Shown in pieces: positions 19,215 to 26,530 of a stretch of 37,942 nucleotides of DNA. The DNA is from Phreatobacter sp. (lineage in GTDB: Bacteria > Pseudomonadota > Alphaproteobacteria > Rhizobiales > Phreatobacteraceae). Below the pieces are notes generated by a model. The model was not told the origin of the DNA, ran no database searches, and saw nothing but the letters and a program-made list of their open reading frames with translations. The DNA lies in contig NZ_JALHMP010000037.1 in the NCBI RefSeq assembly GCF_022843985.1, forward strand, positions 1 through 37,942. The letters run 5' to 3'. Within the stretch, counting starts at the first letter, position 1; every line of letters begins with the position of its first letter. Both the position numbers and the translations under genes were made by a program.

Positions 19215-19290
19215 TGGTGCCCGGGGACGGAGTCGAACCGCCGACACTGCGATTTTCAGTCGCATGCTCTACCAACTGAGCTACCCGGGC
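19215..19290 (-). tRNA. tRNA-Phe (GAA)
   Basis: Read on the minus strand, the 76 bases fold as a complete tRNA. The acceptor stem is GCCCGGG with CCCGGGC, followed by an encoded ACCA end. The D arm is GCTC-AGTTGGTA-GAGC. The anticodon stem TGCGA/TCGCA encloses the loop CTGAAAA, which gives anticodon GAA (Phe). The T arm is GGCGG-TTCGACT-CCGTC with one G-U pair. A matching promoter lies about 50 bp upstream. Confidence 0.97.
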
Positions 19291-19505: not shown

Positions 19506-20090
19506 TCAGCGCAGGACGACCACACGGGTGCCGACGCGGACGCGGTCATAGAGGTCGATGACATCCTCGTTGAGCATGCGGATGCAGCCGGAGGAGACGG
19601 CCTGGCCGATCGTATGCGGCTCGTTGGAGCCGTGGATCCGGTAGAGCGAGGAGCCGAGATAGAGGGCGCGGGCGCCGAGCGGATTGTCCGGGCCGCCCGC
19701 CATGAAGCGCGGCAGGTCGGGGCGGCGGCGCAGCATCTGCACCGGCGGCCGCCAGTCCGGCCATTCCTGCTTGCGGGTGATGGTGGGGCTGCCGGCCCAT
19801 TCGAAGCCGGGCCGGCCGACGCCGATGCCGTAGCGCAGGGCGCGGCCGTCGGCGAGGACGAGATAGAGGCGCCGCTCGGCGGTGTTCACCACCACGGTGC
19901 CGGGCGCATAGGGGCCGTCATAGGCGACGATCTCGCGCGGGATGGCGGGGGCACGGGCCGGGGCATGGGGCCGGGCGACGAGCGGTTCGCGCGTGTCGGG
20001 ATCGAACATGATCGTCTGGACGAACGGATTGGCGGAGGCACCCGAGGCGGCGAGCGACAGGGCGGCGGCGAGGACGAGGCGGCGGTTCAT
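19506..20090 (-). CDS. L,D-transpeptidase (YkuD family)
   Basis: This encodes 194 aa with a signal peptide (MNRRLVLAAALSLAASGASA). The YkuD catalytic domain covers about 65-194. It begins with GTVVVNTAERRLYLVL and carries the active-site motif from H153 (YRIHGSN) to C169 and R171 (SSGCIRM). These periplasmic enzymes form 3-3 cross-links in peptidoglycan or attach proteins to it. The conserved region GFEWAGSPTITRKQEWPDW is typical of the Rhizobiales paralogues. The gene follows a small secreted-protein gene by 33 bp and ends before a strong terminator, so the two form a short operon. Confidence 0.94.
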   Translation of the reverse strand: MNRRLVLAAALSLAASGASANPFVQTIMFDPDTREPLVARPHAPARAPAIPREIVAYDGPYAPGTVVVNTAERRLYLVLADGRALRYGIGVGRPGFEWAGSPTITRKQEWPDWRPPVQMLRRRPDLPRFMAGGPDNPLGARALYLGSSLYRIHGSNEPHTIGQAVSSGCIRMLNEDVIDLYDRVRVGTRVVVLR

Positions 20091-20708: not shown

Positions 20709-21431
20709 TCAGCCCGTCTCGCCCTCGGGCATAAACATGTAGCCGGCGCCGCGCACGGTGCGGATATAGGCGGGCGCATCGGCGTCAGGCTCGATCTTGC
20801 GGCGGATGCGGGTGATGCGCACGTCAATGGCGCGGTCGAAGGCCTCGGGGTCGCGGGCGCCGGCGAGATCGAGCAGGCGGTCACGCGACAGCACCCGGCG
20901 CGGGTTCTCGGCAAAGGCCTTGAGCAGGCTGAACTCCGAGGTGGTCAGGGGATGATCGATCCCCATCTCGTCGCGCAGCACATGGGCGCCGAGGTCGAGG
21001 ATCTTGGTACCGAAGCGCACGAGGTCGCGGGTGCCGCCCGCCCCCGCCGGCCGTGCCGGCGCCACGGCGCGGCGCAGCAGGGCACGGATCCGCGCCAGCA
21101 ATTCGCGCAGCTCGCAGGGCTTGGCGAGATAGTCGTCGGCGCCGAGGTCGAGGCCGGCGATGCGATCGTCGGGGCTGGCGGTGGCGGTCAGCATGATCAC
21201 CGGCACGGACAGCCGCTGCTTCAGGTCGCGCAGGATGGTGAGCCCGTCCTCCCCCGGCATGTTGAGGTCGAGCACGACGACGGCGGGCCGCTCCGCCTCG
21301 ATCGCCTGGCGCAGGGCCGCGCCACCGTCGCAGAGCATCACCCGGAAGCCGTGCATCTTCAGGTAGTCGCCGACCATGTCGCGGGCGGCGGCCTCGTCGT
21401 CGACGACGATGACGAGTTGCCCGGCGATCAT
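20709..21431 (-). CDS. OmpR-family response regulator
   Basis: This encodes 240 aa. The receiver domain (1-120) has the acidic pocket DDE (residues 11-13), phospho-acceptor D55 (VVVLDLNMPG), T in IMLTATAS and K in YLAKPCE. The C-terminal winged helix (about 140-235) includes LTTSEFSLLKAFAENPRRVLS as the helix region and DVRITRIRRKIEPD as the recognition helix, ending YIRTVRGAGYMF. It is the output protein of the four-gene phosphorelay operon: its ATG overlaps the stop of the preceding kinase gene (ATGA at 21428-21431). Its target genes are unknown; the divergent and downstream cell-wall genes are possible. Confidence 0.95.
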   Translation of the reverse strand: MIAGQLVIVVDDEAAARDMVGDYLKMHGFRVMLCDGGAALRQAIEAERPAVVVLDLNMPGEDGLTILRDLKQRLSVPVIMLTATASPDDRIAGLDLGADDYLAKPCELRELLARIRALLRRAVAPARPAGAGGTRDLVRFGTKILDLGAHVLRDEMGIDHPLTTSEFSLLKAFAENPRRVLSRDRLLDLAGARDPEAFDRAIDVRITRIRRKIEPDADAPAYIRTVRGAGYMFMPEGETG

Positions 21432-23206
21432 GACGGCCCCCGCTGCACCAGCGGCGGCAGGGTGAAGGCAAAGGTCGCACCCTTGCCCGGACCGTGGCCC
21501 GTCGCGGTGATATGGCCGCCATGCAGCTCGACGATGCGCCGGCAGATGAACAGGCCGAGGCCGGTCGAGCTCTCGCCCCCGGTCGGCTTGGCGGAGAGCC
21601 GCTGGAAGCGCCCGAACAGGCGCTGCTCGTCCTCCGCCGTCAGGCCCGGACCGGAATCGCTGACGGCGATACGGTGACCCGCCTCGCTGGAGGCCAGCGA
21701 CACGCAGATCCGTCCGCCGGGCGGGGAATATTTCACCGCATTGGAGACGAGGTTGTCGATGGCTTCCCGCAGCCGGTCGGGATCGGCGCGGCCGGGCAGG
21801 ACGTCCGGGCCGCTATAGACCAGCATCTGGCCCTTGCGTTCGGCCAGCGGCGCATTGGCGTCGATCACCGCGCCGACGATGGCGGCGGCGTCGATATCGG
21901 CGAGGCGCAGGACGATGTCCTCCGCATCCAGCATGGCATCGTTGATCAGATCATCGACCATCGAGGTCATGCGGGCGACGGAGGCGCGGATCTGCTCGAT
22001 CTGGCTGCGGGCGCGGTCGATATTGGGCGGGTCGAGGCAGAGGAGCTCGTTCATCATCTCGGATCGGCCGAGAATGACGCCGAGCGGGTTCTTCAGGTCA
22101 TGGGCGACGGTGCCGAGCACATCGGCCTTGTGGTCGTTGGTGCGCTTCAGGCGCTGCCACTGGGCCGTCAGGCGCTCGTTGGCGAGGGTGAGCTGACGGG
22201 TGCGGTCGGCGACGCGGCGCTCGAGGGTGGCATTGGCGGCCTGCAGCTGCTCGTAGAGGATGACATTGTCGAAGGCGGTGGAGAGGCGGCCGCAGAAGAC
22301 GGCGACCAGGGTCTGGTCGGTCTCCGACAGGGGCCGGTCGGAGGTCAAGGCGACGACGACCTCGCGACCGCTGGCGGTCTCGATGTAGAGGGCGGTCTCG
22401 GTGGCCTCGAAAGCATGGCGGCGCCGCTCGAAAGCGCGCTGGACGAGCTGCTCCATGGCGGCGTCGAGAGGGCCATCGCCACCGGCCGCAAAGGGGGCAT
22501 AGACGCCGGAGCCGGCCAGCACGGCGAAATGGGCGCGGCGCTCCTCGCGCAGGACCAGGAGGCCCTCGCAGGAGGCCTGGACGAGCCCGGCGATCTGGGT
22601 GAGGACGCCGGCGGCGAGCTTCCTCATGGATTTCAGATCGAAGAGCTCGGAGGCCGCCTCGACGACCAGTTCGAGGCCGCGCCGGGTCTCCACCAGGCGC
22701 ATCAGCTGCTGATAGGAGCGGATGGCGGCGGTCAGCGAGGTGAAGAGCTTGTCGCCGGTCAGCTCGGTCTTCGCCTTGTAGTCGTTGATGTCGTAGTCGA
22801 CGATCACCTGCCGCTCGGGCGCCTGGCCGGGCTGGCCGGTGCGCAGGATGATGCGCACCGTGTCGTTCTTCAGCTCCTTGCGGATATGTTCGACGAGGTC
22901 GAGACCCGCACCGTCGCTCTCCATGACGACGTCGAGCAGCACCACCGCCATGTCGGGATGGCGGGCGAGGAGCGCGCGGCCCTCGGCGGCCGAGAAGGCG
23001 GAATAGAGGTCGAGCCTGTGGCCGGCCAGCTGGTAGTCGGACAGCGCATATTTGGTGCCGGAATGGATCGCGGCGTCGTCGTCGATGATGGCAACCTTCC
23101 AGCGGCCCGCTTCGGTGACGGCGTCGCCGGGGCCATCGTCGAGGATCGCGACGAGATCGTCGTCGTCCTCGGGTCGCGGCGCATCCTGGTGCGGGTCGGA
23201 CATCAT
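21428..23206 (-). CDS. REC-DUF3369-histidine kinase (hybrid, cytoplasmic)
   Basis: This encodes 592 aa with no membrane segment. An acidic N-terminus (30 residues) precedes a receiver domain (about 35-165) with IIDDDAA and phospho-acceptor D92 (VVLLDVVM). DUF3369 follows (about 170-320), a GAF-like domain usually seen between REC and HD-GYP. A coiled coil (about 318-358) leads to a HisKA domain with H369 (VAHDLKNPLG) and a HATPase with N-box DNLVSNAVKYS, G1 SDSGPG and G2 STGLGLFICRR. It can thus receive a phosphoryl group on REC and autophosphorylate on its own His. It overlaps both neighbours by 4 bp (23203-23206 and 21428-21431). It is likely the middle step of the relay from the membrane kinase to the OmpR-type regulator. 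Confidence 0.94.
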   Translation of the reverse strand: MMSDPHQDAPRPEDDDDLVAILDDGPGDAVTEAGRWKVAIIDDDAAIHSGTKYALSDYQLAGHRLDLYSAFSAAEGRALLARHPDMAVVLLDVVMESDGAGLDLVEHIRKELKNDTVRIILRTGQPGQAPERQVIVDYDINDYKAKTELTGDKLFTSLTAAIRSYQQLMRLVETRRGLELVVEAASELFDLKSMRKLAAGVLTQIAGLVQASCEGLLVLREERRAHFAVLAGSGVYAPFAAGGDGPLDAAMEQLVQRAFERRRHAFEATETALYIETASGREVVVALTSDRPLSETDQTLVAVFCGRLSTAFDNVILYEQLQAANATLERRVADRTRQLTLANERLTAQWQRLKRTNDHKADVLGTVAHDLKNPLGVILGRSEMMNELLCLDPPNIDRARSQIEQIRASVARMTSMVDDLINDAMLDAEDIVLRLADIDAAAIVGAVIDANAPLAERKGQMLVYSGPDVLPGRADPDRLREAIDNLVSNAVKYSPPGGRICVSLASSEAGHRIAVSDSGPGLTAEDEQRLFGRFQRLSAKPTGGESSTGLGLFICRRIVELHGGHITATGHGPGKGATFAFTLPPLVQRGPS

Positions 23207-25242
23207 GCGGGTTCCTGCCGGTCGCCGGGTTCCTGCGGCGCAGTCAGCGGCAGGACGATGCGGAAGCTGGTGCCGACGCCCGGCGTCGAGGCCAGCGAGA
23301 TACGCCCGCCGAGGCGGCGTGTCACGATGTTGAAGACGATATTCAGGCCGAGCCCCGTGCCCCCCTGCCCGCGCCGCGTGGTGAAGAAGGGATCATAGGC
23401 CTGGCGCTGCACCTCGGCATTCATCCCCATCCCGTCGTCGCGGAAGGTCATGACGACCTGGTCGCCTTCCGGCACGGCCTCGATGACGAAGGTTCCGGCA
23501 CGGCCGTCCGGAAAGGCATGGGTGAGCGCGTTGATGAACAGGTTGGTGACCACCTGTCCATAGGGACCGGGATAGCTGTCGAGGACGATGTCGGGCGGCA
23601 CATGGACCTCGAGCTTCACCGCCGCACGCCGGAGCGTCGGCCTGAGGCTGGCGACGATCTGGTCGGTGGCCTCGGCCAGATTGAAATGGCGGCGGTCGGC
23701 ATGGCTGCGGTCGACCGCCACCTGCTTGAAGGCCTGCACCATCTCGCCGGCACGCTGGAGATTGAGCGCGAGCTGGCTGGCGGCCTCGCGGCTGCCCTGG
23801 ACGAATTCGGTCAGGCGCGAGCGCCGCAGCTCGCCGCGCTCCACATCGGCGGCGAATTCGTCGATGCGCCGCGACAGTGTCGAGGCGACGGTCAGCGAAA
23901 TGCCGATGGGATTGTTCACCTCGTGGGCGACACCGGCGACGAGGCCGCCGAGGGCGGCGAGCTTCTCCGCCTCGATCAGGCTCTGCTGCGTCTCGCGCAG
24001 GTGGTCGAGTGCGGTTTCGGCACGGTCCTTGGCAGCGACGAGGTCCTGCTCGGCGCGCTGCTTCTCGATGGCGTTCTGGCGGAACACCTCCACCGCCCGC
24101 GCCATGCGGCCGATATCGTCCGTGGTGGTGAGGCCGGAGGGCGGGCGTTCGAGATCGCCGGCGACAATGGCGTTCATGCTGCCGGCGAGGTCGTCCAGCG
24201 GCACGCGGATGGACCTGGCTATGAGCGTCCAGATGATGGCGGCGATGACGAGGAAGATGCCGGCAATGCCGGCGGCCTGGACGAAGACGATGCGCAGCGT
24301 CTGGTCGAGCCGCTGCTGCGCCGCATCCTCCTTGGCGCGCACGCGATCGGCCACCTCCTGGATCACCGTCGCCATCACCGCCTGGTTGCCGTCGATCTCG
24401 ACCTGGAGCAGGCGGTTCTGCATGCCGAGAACCTGGATCATCCGGCCGAATCCGGCCCGCAGCGCATTGGTGCGCTGGGCGAGCGTCGTCAGCGCGGCGC
24501 GCTGGAAATCGGTCTCGGCAAGATCGACCATGACCGGTGCCGTCTGCTGGATCACCTCGATCGACCGCGAGGCGTCACGCTGCGCCTGGACGGACTGGGT
24601 CAGGTAATAGTCGTTGATGGCGACGAGGAAGACGGAGAAGGCCTCGCGCGATTTGCCGAGCGAGGGCCCGACCAGGGCGGCCCGGTCGGCCATGGCCGTC
24701 TCGACCACGGCATAGAGCTGCGAGAGTTCGCTGGCCGGCTTGCGGATCTCGTTCTCGTAGATGGAGGAAATCGTCTCGCGCACGCTGCGCAACTCGTCGA
24801 AGCCCAGCATGAATCGCTCGGTGACGCTGGTGACCGAGCGGGCCGGATTCTGCAGCGCGAGGTCGATCTCCTGCTCGATGGCAAGCTTTGCCAGGAGCGC
24901 CCTGCGGCGCTGCTCGATCTCGTTCAGCACCGTCTCGTTGGGCAGGGCGAAATAGCGGTGGATGAGGGTCTGCAGACGCCCCGCATCATTCTCGATGGCG
25001 GCCAGCAGGCGGTCGATGCGGCGCGCCTCCTGCAGGTCTCCCCAGGCCGAGCGGATGGCCCTTGCGCCGGAGGCGATCAGCAGCATGAGGAGGGTGATGA
25101 AGGCGAGGTTGAGGATGACGACGGTGACAATGCGCCAGCGCACCGGGATGCGCCGCAACTGCTCGGAGGCCCGGTCGAGGCGGCCGCGGATCGTCCGCAG
25201 CGCCGGCCGGACCATCACCCGTCGTGCGGTCGTCGCATCCAT
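23203..25242 (-). CDS. membrane sensor histidine kinase with large periplasmic domain
   Basis: This encodes 679 aa from the ATG at 25242, which overlaps the stop of the binding-protein gene as ATGA. Transmembrane helix 1 spans about 38-60 and helix 2 about 319-342. Between them lies an all-helical periplasmic domain of about 255 residues without a recognised ligand fold, suggesting a helical bundle. HAMP covers about 343-395, a coiled coil follows, then HisKA with H440 (GVAHEVNNPIG). The HATPase has the N-box NLFINALTHAF, G1 RDDGMGMN and G2 GQGGTGLGLN. The architecture is that of TorS/DctB-like sensors which read an occupied periplasmic binding protein. Being translationally coupled to a TRAP-type binding protein supports this. 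The kinase has no own receiver; the next gene supplies it. Confidence 0.94.
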   Translation of the reverse strand: MDATTARRVMVRPALRTIRGRLDRASEQLRRIPVRWRIVTVVILNLAFITLLMLLIASGARAIRSAWGDLQEARRIDRLLAAIENDAGRLQTLIHRYFALPNETVLNEIEQRRRALLAKLAIEQEIDLALQNPARSVTSVTERFMLGFDELRSVRETISSIYENEIRKPASELSQLYAVVETAMADRAALVGPSLGKSREAFSVFLVAINDYYLTQSVQAQRDASRSIEVIQQTAPVMVDLAETDFQRAALTTLAQRTNALRAGFGRMIQVLGMQNRLLQVEIDGNQAVMATVIQEVADRVRAKEDAAQQRLDQTLRIVFVQAAGIAGIFLVIAAIIWTLIARSIRVPLDDLAGSMNAIVAGDLERPPSGLTTTDDIGRMARAVEVFRQNAIEKQRAEQDLVAAKDRAETALDHLRETQQSLIEAEKLAALGGLVAGVAHEVNNPIGISLTVASTLSRRIDEFAADVERGELRRSRLTEFVQGSREAASQLALNLQRAGEMVQAFKQVAVDRSHADRRHFNLAEATDQIVASLRPTLRRAAVKLEVHVPPDIVLDSYPGPYGQVVTNLFINALTHAFPDGRAGTFVIEAVPEGDQVVMTFRDDGMGMNAEVQRQAYDPFFTTRRGQGGTGLGLNIVFNIVTRRLGGRISLASTPGVGTSFRIVLPLTAPQEPGDRQEPA

Positions 25243-26240
25243 CAGCGGGCCTGGCGGATGCGCGCCACCAGCGCGGCGAGCGGCGGATCGGCGGAAAAGC
25301 GTTGGACGATGGGCCGCACCGCCTGCTCGAAGCTGTCGCGGTCCTCCAGGGTGACCACGGTGACCCCCGCCGCCTCGGCCTGGCGACGCGAGGTCTGTTC
25401 GAGCTTCAGCCATTGTTCGCGCATGGCGCGGGCCGAGGCGCGGGCGGCGGCGCGGAAGATGTCGCGGTCGGCCGCGGAGAGTTCGTCCCAGGCCTTGCGC
25501 GAAACCACCAGGACCTCCGGGCTCATCGTATGTTCGGTGAGCGTGATGTGGCGTGCCGCCCGGTAATGGTCGGTGGTGACATAGGACGGCCAGTTGTTCT
25601 CGGCGCCCTGGATGAGACCCGTGACGAGGCTGACGCTGACCTGGCCATAGGGCAGGGCCACCGGCTCGGCACCGAGGGCCCGCATCATCTCGACCATCAT
25701 GTCGGACTGCTGCACCCGGATGCGCAGGCCCTTGAGGTCCTCGACCCTGCGGATCGGCCTGACGGAATTATAGATCGACCGGGCACCGGAATCGTAGAAG
25801 GCAAGGCCGATCAGGCCGTAGCGTTCGAATCCGGCGAGGATGTCGTCGCCAACCGGGCCGTCAAGGACCCGGTGCAGGTGTTCGACAGAGCTGAACAGGA
25901 AGGGCAAGGCGAGGATATTGGCCTCGGGGATGAAGCTCGCCAGCGGCGCGACATTGGTGCGGTTGATGTCGATGGCGCCGATGCGCGTCTGCTCGATCGT
26001 CTCCTTCTCCTCACCGAGCTGCCGGGAATGGAAGATGCGCAGACGGTGTCGGCCGCCGGTGCGCTCGGCGATGAGCGCGCCCATCAGCTCGAGGGCCTTC
26101 ACCGTCGGGTAGTCGGCGGGCTGGGTGTCGGCGACGCGAAACTCACGCGCCGCGAGGTCGCCGGCAGGCCACAGCGCCAGAAGGCAGGCCAGCGCGAGTG
26201 CCGCCGCCCTTCCTGTCGCGATGGCGAACATCCCGCCCAT
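25242..26240 (-). CDS. TRAP-type (DctP family) periplasmic solute-binding protein, permease-less
   Basis: This encodes 332 aa from the ATG at 26240, with AAGGGC 7 nt upstream; an in-frame ATG at 26231 is possible and the frame extends to 26372 without signal-like sequence. The signal peptide includes AAALALACLLALWPAGDLAA. The DctP fold is evident: a binding segment LKGLRIRVQQSDMM with the conserved carboxylate-binding Arg, then ALPYGQVSVSLVTGLIQGAENN and a later HTMSPEVLVVSRKAW. Family ligands are organic acids. No DctQ or DctM subunit genes are nearby, while the next three genes are signal-transduction proteins coupled by 4-bp overlaps. It is therefore more likely a sensor co-receptor than part of a transporter. 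It is the first gene of the operon. Confidence 0.93.
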   Translation of the reverse strand: MGGMFAIATGRAAALALACLLALWPAGDLAAREFRVADTQPADYPTVKALELMGALIAERTGGRHRLRIFHSRQLGEEKETIEQTRIGAIDINRTNVAPLASFIPEANILALPFLFSSVEHLHRVLDGPVGDDILAGFERYGLIGLAFYDSGARSIYNSVRPIRRVEDLKGLRIRVQQSDMMVEMMRALGAEPVALPYGQVSVSLVTGLIQGAENNWPSYVTTDHYRAARHITLTEHTMSPEVLVVSRKAWDELSAADRDIFRAAARASARAMREQWLKLEQTSRRQAEAAGVTVVTLEDRDSFEQAVRPIVQRFSADPPLAALVARIRQAR

Positions 26241-26530
26241 GCCGAGCCCTTGCGCGTTGCGGGCGCCGCCGGGGGCTCCCTCCGGAAAATCATGCCACAG
26301 ATCACCGCCCCTTCGCCATCGCCGGTCGGGACGAGGCGCGGCGGCATGCGGGCATGGTGAAGACGACGGCATTGTTTCTTTTGCGTGTCGCAGCGAGCCC
26401 AGGTTGTCGCCGCCGGGAAGGTGCGGGCGACATCGCGCCGAAACCGCCCCGGCCGATCATCGCTGCGATCGAGGGTGCGGCCGGCAGCGGCTGCGCCCGC
26501 TCCGCCGTGAGCGGCAGCAGGAGATTGCGC

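Follow-up and report, generated by a model that had tools for sequence, protein, structure and literature searches.

A permease-less TRAP binding protein in a conserved two-kinase operon of Phreatobacter: a candidate co-receptor for a putative phosphorelay

Binding-protein co-receptors and the Phreatobacter operon

In the TorT-TorS-TorR system a kinase with a helical sensor has a binding protein as its co-receptor; this protein, TorT, does not belong to the tripartite ATP-independent periplasmic (TRAP) group, and the kinase, TorS, is a single hybrid one. In the ChvE-VirA system the response of the kinase is raised by a periplasmic sugar-binding protein, ChvE, which is an ATP-binding cassette (ABC) sugar binding protein. 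Here we describe an operon of Phreatobacter sp. that is like the former in its apparent co-receptor arrangement and like the latter in placing a putative sugar-binding periplasmic protein with a kinase. It occupies positions 20709-26240, on the minus strand, of contig NZ_JALHMP010000037.1, which in its entirety forms the 37,942-nucleotide stretch analysed (the window) and belongs to a genome of 4.33 Mb. The four overlapping genes encode, in this order, a DctP-type TRAP binding protein, a membrane histidine kinase (HK1), a second histidine kinase with REC and DUF3369 domains (HK2) and an OmpR-type response regulator (RR). Comparison of this locus with its relatives leads us to favour, with some reserve, the reading that the operon encodes a TorT-TorS-like co-receptor acting on a phosphorelay whose binding-protein input is exchangeable. 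The features are as follows.

25242-26240, minus strand: DctP-type binding protein (PF03480), 332 amino acids, of the hexuronate clade; permease gene not adjacent
23203-25242, minus strand: HK1, membrane histidine kinase, 679 amino acids, with HAMP, H440 and HATPase_c
24298-25059, minus strand: periplasmic sensor domain of HK1, about residues 62-315, modelled as all-helical and McpS/TorS-like
21428-23206, minus strand: HK2, REC-DUF3369-HisKA-HATPase kinase, 592 amino acids, with D92 and H369
22766-23095, minus strand: REC domain of HK2, residues 38-147, by domain match and invariant residues
22244-22735, minus strand: DUF3369 domain of HK2, residues 158-321, by Pfam match
20709-21431, minus strand: OmpR-family response regulator (RR), 240 amino acids, with D55

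The contact between TorT and TorS is described in the available part of PMC6321045, which also covers LuxP-LuxQ, XylFII-LytS and CtpL-PstS. The model of the HK1 sensor matches the TorS-TorT structures 3O1H/3O1I at an E value of about 1e-2; unlike in TorT-TorS-TorR, a second, REC-DUF3369 kinase follows in the operon here. In Bordetella, BctC, a binding protein of a secondary transporter, binds an acid and signals to a two-component kinase (PMC5812351 and PMC9602780, available parts), and the BctC-BctE/BctD system likewise ties a binding protein of the secondary-transporter kind to such a kinase; however, BctC is a TctC protein with its own permease, BctBA, whereas the Phreatobacter protein is a DctP (PF03480) with no permease gene and two kinases. 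In the CtpL-PstS system of Pseudomonas an HBM-type domain is activated by a binding protein (PMC6321045, available part), although there the partners are a chemoreceptor and an ABC binding protein. REC-DUF3369-HD proteins and their kinases share with the operon the REC-DUF3369 part and an HK1-type partner, often directly upstream, but their output is mostly HD or EAL, whereas here it is a histidine kinase with an OmpR-type regulator. The available part of PMC9602780 counts about ten cases in which activation of a sensor kinase by a binding protein has been characterised, and a literature search, with subscription papers mostly outside its scope, returned no recognised description of this four-gene system.

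Coding scores are strong for all four genes, and open reading frames, Pfam domains and motifs confirm the domains and residues named in an earlier note on this DNA, the histidines and aspartates of a phosphorelay all being present: H440 in HK1, D92 and H369 in HK2 and D55 in RR. The 4-bp overlap that the same note gave for every junction is found at RR/HK2 and HK2/HK1, but DctP and HK1 overlap by 1 bp (TGATG), given an HK1 start at 25242; this start is uncertain, the gene finder having favoured 25215. DctP matches PF03480 with 268.8 bits (cut-off 23.4) and TIGR00787 with 194.4 (cut-off 175.05), and to the eye its N-terminus resembles a signal peptide. The DUF3369 match of HK2 scores 141.3 bits and is the sole one of the genome. 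The REC match of HK2 reaches just 27.9 bits, below the Pfam cut-off of 30.2; across 13 aligned HK2 sequences D42, D43, D92, T123, K144 and K146 are invariant, as is H369. Upstream of dctP lies a short GTGGCATGAT-like stretch (window 26280-26320), common to the genus by eye, which may be a promoter or regulator site.

Conservation of the cassette and apparent exchange of its input

Homologues of HK2 were searched for in 397 genomes of the order (E <= 1e-60) and 385 of the class (E <= 1e-40). In the order, 52 genomes matched, the host's own included; 12 of these belong to the genus of the host, and the non-matches listed, from which 325 genomes are absent, include none of that genus. In the class, 28 genomes matched, most over only part of HK2. 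One further contig scan contributed the best 80 of at least 555 relatives, and the locus set therefore leans towards close relatives. Together these sets comprise 131 loci, the window uncounted, and 122 distinct loci once 9 duplicates are removed (L171, L219 and L223 are duplicate loci without DctP). The order DctP, HK1, HK2 is found in 62 of the 122, mostly from Hyphomicrobiales, with DctP shortened in L115 and L204; the loci include Bradyrhizobium, Tardiphaga, Prosthecomicrobium and other members of that order. RR lies directly downstream of HK2 in 60 of the 62 (exceptions L115 and L208), a divergent UgpB-type gene is present in 43, and the cassette occurs in all 12 same-genus genomes matched (the window and L089-L099). 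Neither dctQ nor dctM is found in the operon, and DctM occurs in a single one of the 62 loci, 7.9 kb from the HK2 start; the flanks covered 4.7-9.8 kb on the upstream side of HK2 and 0.1-9 kb on its downstream side. The absence of DctQ and DctM stated in the earlier note is thereby confirmed, and the comparison supports the conserved gene order without them that the note proposed to look for.

The other 60 distinct loci differ in what accompanies HK2. HK1 directly precedes an SBP_bac_5 gene in 16, a UgpB-type gene in 2 and one of each in L217 (17 and 3 loci, respectively, with L217 counted in both), and an undescribed protein precedes HK1 in 6. In 14 loci HK1 adjoins HK2 and a divergent UgpB-type gene is the sole binding-protein gene present, and in 6 HK1 adjoins HK2 but none of these proteins is encoded (L160 and L185 being cut by contig ends); in 3 HK1 is found at another place of the locus, again with no such protein, and 12 lack HK1. 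Eight genomes without the DctP cassette hold one HK1 match each at E <= 1e-30, near HK2 in five and elsewhere in G598, G604 and G728, where it directly precedes an SBP_bac_5-type gene (L267, L262 and L268, respectively); in one reverse search HK1 scored 256 bits against 85 for the next match. No dppBC follows the SBP_bac_5 gene in the eight loci inspected, an ABC set on the opposite strand coming next in L229, and a DppB hidden Markov model (HMM) finds a match, not adjoining the kinase-linked gene, in three of the 17 loci with SBP_bac_5. The SBP_bac_5 or UgpB-type proteins beside HK1 orthologues are, it appears, permease-less. In Methylobacterium longum (L217:1-7292), a kinase-UgpB pair and a kinase-SBP_bac_5 pair, mutually convergent and each with a 4-bp overlap, adjoin a single HK2 and a single RR. 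Five loci (L123-L126 and L128) encode an HK1 whose sensor is about 20% identical to that of the host while the kinase part is about 60% identical; the sensor HMM still matches, which makes the periplasmic part a diverged relative. In these five the position of DctP is taken by an undescribed, apparently secreted protein of 304-320 amino acids (e.g., L124:4521-5480), for which no Pfam match was obtained in the one scanned (L124), and in L114 a longer predicted gene contains the related stretch. The best reading of these arrangements is that the HK2-RR core is kept and that the binding protein and HK1 form an exchangeable input part. In another order, a Peripla_BP_6 gene, of a further binding-protein class, overlaps the start of an HK1-type kinase (L319:696-3616).

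Among the neighbours of the cassette, a YkuD transpeptidase gene on the RR side (window 19506-20090) is kept in 61 of the 131 clustered loci, and a sigma-factor-like gene, named by eye, lies near RR in 61 of the 131 (e.g., L173:11930-12541). A tRNA-Phe (gaa) is located at 19215-19290 of the window, on the minus strand.

Clade of DctP and the TRAP permeases of the host

The closest solved relative of DctP is 4N8Y (51% in the fold alignment; Foldseek E 3.7e-33; phmmer E 2.6e-103), followed by 4MHF, 4OVR and 4X8R. In the available parts of the sources, 4N8Y is galacturonate-binding and 4X8R glucuronate-binding (PMC11668362), and Bpro_3107/4MHF binds both (PMC7660916). In a tree of 59 rows, the 21 cassette DctPs group as a single clade (100/100) inside a hexuronate group with 4N8Y, 4MHF and 4OVR (96/94), 4X8R falling just outside. 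The Phreatobacter DctP is thus a member, by sequence, of the D-glucuronate/D-galacturonate clade of TRAP binding proteins. In nine uronate-clade proteins 82 columns are invariant, and 49 of these have the same residue in every one of the 21 cassette DctPs, including R94, D150, R154, R175, N215 and N216. Clade and residues together suggest a hexuronate as the ligand, which we regard as a best guess and not a certainty; the organic acid proposed in the earlier note would stand as an acid and be narrowed to this class. Among the other 21 DctPs of the genome, only L001 falls in the hexuronate group, and it is encoded with DctQ, DctM and KduI (5-dehydro-4-deoxy-D-glucuronate isomerase; 429.5 bits, cut-off 250). 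The same genome holds a TRAP operon with KduI and a cupin, which we take to be KdgF-like, at L150:1840-7759 (G000:C4:128339-134258), with a probable role in uronate uptake.

The genome holds 22 DctP matches and 21 DctM matches, the latter counted as 20 DctM genes. Their coordinates place 16 of these no more than 2 kb from a DctP, with one pair on opposite strands, and the remaining 4 are TRAP_fused permeases that each adjoin a TAXI binding protein; no unpaired TRAP permease was therefore found. A free permease elsewhere in the genome, the occurrence of which the earlier note saw as telling against its reading, was thus sought and not found, although a paired permease could still be shared. The operon DctP is one of 6 of the 22 DctPs without DctM within 5 kb. 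In 15-kb stretches around the other five, two kinase HMMs detected no histidine kinase, and one REC protein was present, about 6 kb off (L142).

Proposed mechanism and its alternatives

We propose that DctP, formerly a transport protein of the hexuronate clade, would bind D-glucuronate or D-galacturonate and, rather than passing the ligand to a permease, would dock on HK1 at its helical periplasmic domain, in the manner of TorT and TorS. Docking would alter the activity of HK1, which would exchange phosphate with the REC domain of HK2; the phosphorylated REC and DUF3369 would then set the activity of the kinase domain of HK2 itself, and this domain would act on RR. The role of DctP as a receptor for HK1, put forward in the earlier note, gains comparative support from the operon, from the McpS/TorS-like sensor model and from the other binding proteins with which orthologous kinases are paired. 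HK1 residues 31-345 align without gaps across 25 sequences, and the sensor model is all-helical (predicted local distance difference test 87.1, predicted template-modelling score 0.65). By Foldseek it matches McpS (E 5.4e-4 to 1.9e-3; template-modelling score 0.54-0.58 by query and 0.70-0.76 by target), PilJ (1e-3 to 2e-3) and TorS-TorT (9.6e-3 to 1.6e-2), with unrelated helical proteins appearing from 1.2e-2. From this model the sensor is likely, though not proven, to be an HBM-type domain.

A chance neighbourhood of unrelated genes is very improbable. With 22 DctP genes in the genome, 6 of them without a nearby DctM, some such adjacency is likely, but the genes overlap and their order recurs in 62 of the 122 distinct loci, on which ground chance adjacency was rejected. 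More serious, though in our judgement unlikely, is the alternative that HK1 senses a small molecule directly through its HBM-type domain and that DctP is a spare transport protein, merely co-expressed, that lends its ligand to a permease elsewhere, such as the KduI-linked one. Several observations weigh against the co-receptor reading, and a number of them are what direct sensing would lead one to expect. The top fold match of the sensor is McpS, which was reportedly crystallised with malate and succinate bound, and an HBM-type domain may therefore need no binding protein; the helical-bundle matches themselves are weak, and the Pfam HBM model matches 1 of 25 members, at 0.0022. An HK1-type kinase is present in 110 distinct loci. 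Of these, 18 with enough flank (L160 and L185, truncated by contig ends, are outside this count) have HK1 beside HK2 and neither DctP nor the undescribed protein, including loci of Bradyrhizobium and Tardiphaga, and DctP as a fixed partner of HK1 is accordingly not a rule; 14 of the 18 carry the divergent UgpB-type gene. Relocation of DctP was ruled out in the four DctP-less genomes tested (G731, G551, G574 and G616), none of which holds a DctP more than 43% identical to that of the host. The HK1 sensor is kept where DctP is missing, and relaxed evolution after the loss was tested and found not significant (ratio 1.13, p 0.28), with sensor-to-kinase branch ratios of 2.11 on DctP-less vs 1.87 on DctP-bearing branches. 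This test used 80 HK1 sequences, 54 of them in the Bradyrhizobium clade, where DctP-less loci form five separate groups, with a fast tree and shuffled branch labels; from 97 aligned HK1, 7 duplicates, 2 contig-truncated loci, L059, L115, L225 and 5 HK1 with diverged sensors were left out. Binding-site residues of DctP are kept, a point in favour of this alternative. In most cassette DctPs 18 of the 82 clade columns are changed (e.g., E200Q, K173R and N192E), and the ligand may therefore differ; a link between the presence of a uronate-clade transport protein and that of a cassette DctP was looked for and not seen. The loss data imply that DctP is either not strictly needed or replaced, perhaps by the divergent UgpB-type protein, and if one kinase served both, DctP could be lost without relaxation of the sensor. 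Direct sensing fits poorly with a gene order that several families share and in which just one locus of 62 includes DctM, with the TRAP permeases of the genome each having a binding protein of their own, sharing aside, and with orthologous kinases being paired with other binding proteins, and we continue to prefer DctP as co-receptor.

The order of the relay admits a further alternative, in which HK1 phosphorylates RR directly, the REC domain of HK2 serves as a sink for phosphate or as an input for feedback, and the two kinases converge in parallel. As this would require, catalytic motifs are present in both kinases and one DNA-binding regulator is encoded in the operon, but we hold it to be improbable in view of the pairing of HK1-type kinases with REC-DUF3369 proteins throughout the class. 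In a class sample of 384 genomes besides the host, where scoring covered the top three candidates of each genome for the HK2 query and the top six for the HK1 kinase query, REC-DUF3369 matches occur in 22 genomes and HK1-type kinases in 31; an HK1-type kinase is present in 21 of the 22 REC-DUF3369 genomes vs 10 of the 362 others (p 4.5e-26, not corrected for kinship), or 22 of 23 vs 9 of 361 if G205, whose protein is by HMMs a REC-kinase without DUF3369, is counted. The two genes lie within 3.5 kb of each other in 16 of the 22 genomes, and in 12 the kinase is directly upstream on the same strand, one of these (G361) being the Bradyrhizobium cassette itself. Of 12 loci outside the order with such a pair (L059, L060, L303, L304, L306-L312 and L320), 11 have the DUF3369 protein as the carrier of the only REC that HMMs found in the fetched stretch; in L059 that protein contains a second REC, and the REC of L310 was detected only by a longer HMM. 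HK1-type kinases without any nearby REC exist as well (L302, L313 and L317-L319). HK2 and RR remain neighbours in loci without HK1, which also speaks against parallel kinases and from which we infer that HK2 acts on RR. Class-wide pairing thus makes transfer from HK1 to the REC of HK2, the order given in the earlier note, the likeliest first step on comparative grounds, and transfer from HK2 to RR is the likeliest last step. Twelve DUF3369 proteins selected from outside the order end in HD in 7 cases, EAL in 2 (one with GGDEF) and a hybrid kinase in 3, in agreement with the earlier note's remark that DUF3369 is normally found with HD-GYP outputs; the available parts of PMC9756655 and PMC4212101 likewise report it with HD-GYP. 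Within the order, every one of the 52 HK2 matches extends into the kinase part, although a whole-HK2 query favours such proteins. Two further kinases were observed: a second HK1-like kinase of Bradyrhizobium (L302:6012-8699, G361:C1), 61% identical over the kinase part, for which neither HK2 nor REC was found in the 13 kb fetched, and, in another order, an HK1-type kinase between two REC-bearing genes, one of them encoding REC and a kinase (L316:5443-10571).

The operon yields a testable ligand candidate, a hexuronate, and the genome comparison points to a family of kinases whose input is a replaceable binding protein. Given the exchanges described here, it is conceivable, though we put it forward tentatively and with slightly more doubt than belief, that HK1-type kinases of Alphaproteobacteria are sensors with interchangeable permease-less inputs (TRAP DctP, SBP_bac_5, UgpB-type and possibly Peripla_BP_6 proteins and the undescribed, apparently secreted protein) that signal through a REC-DUF3369 switch, the output of which has been swapped between enzymes of cyclic di-GMP and a histidine kinase that acts on a regulator of the OmpR type; one Bradyrhizobium kinase may serve both DctP and the divergent UgpB-type protein. 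The genome comparison also gives the scarcely described DUF3369 a likely role as a switch between an HK1-type kinase and varied outputs.

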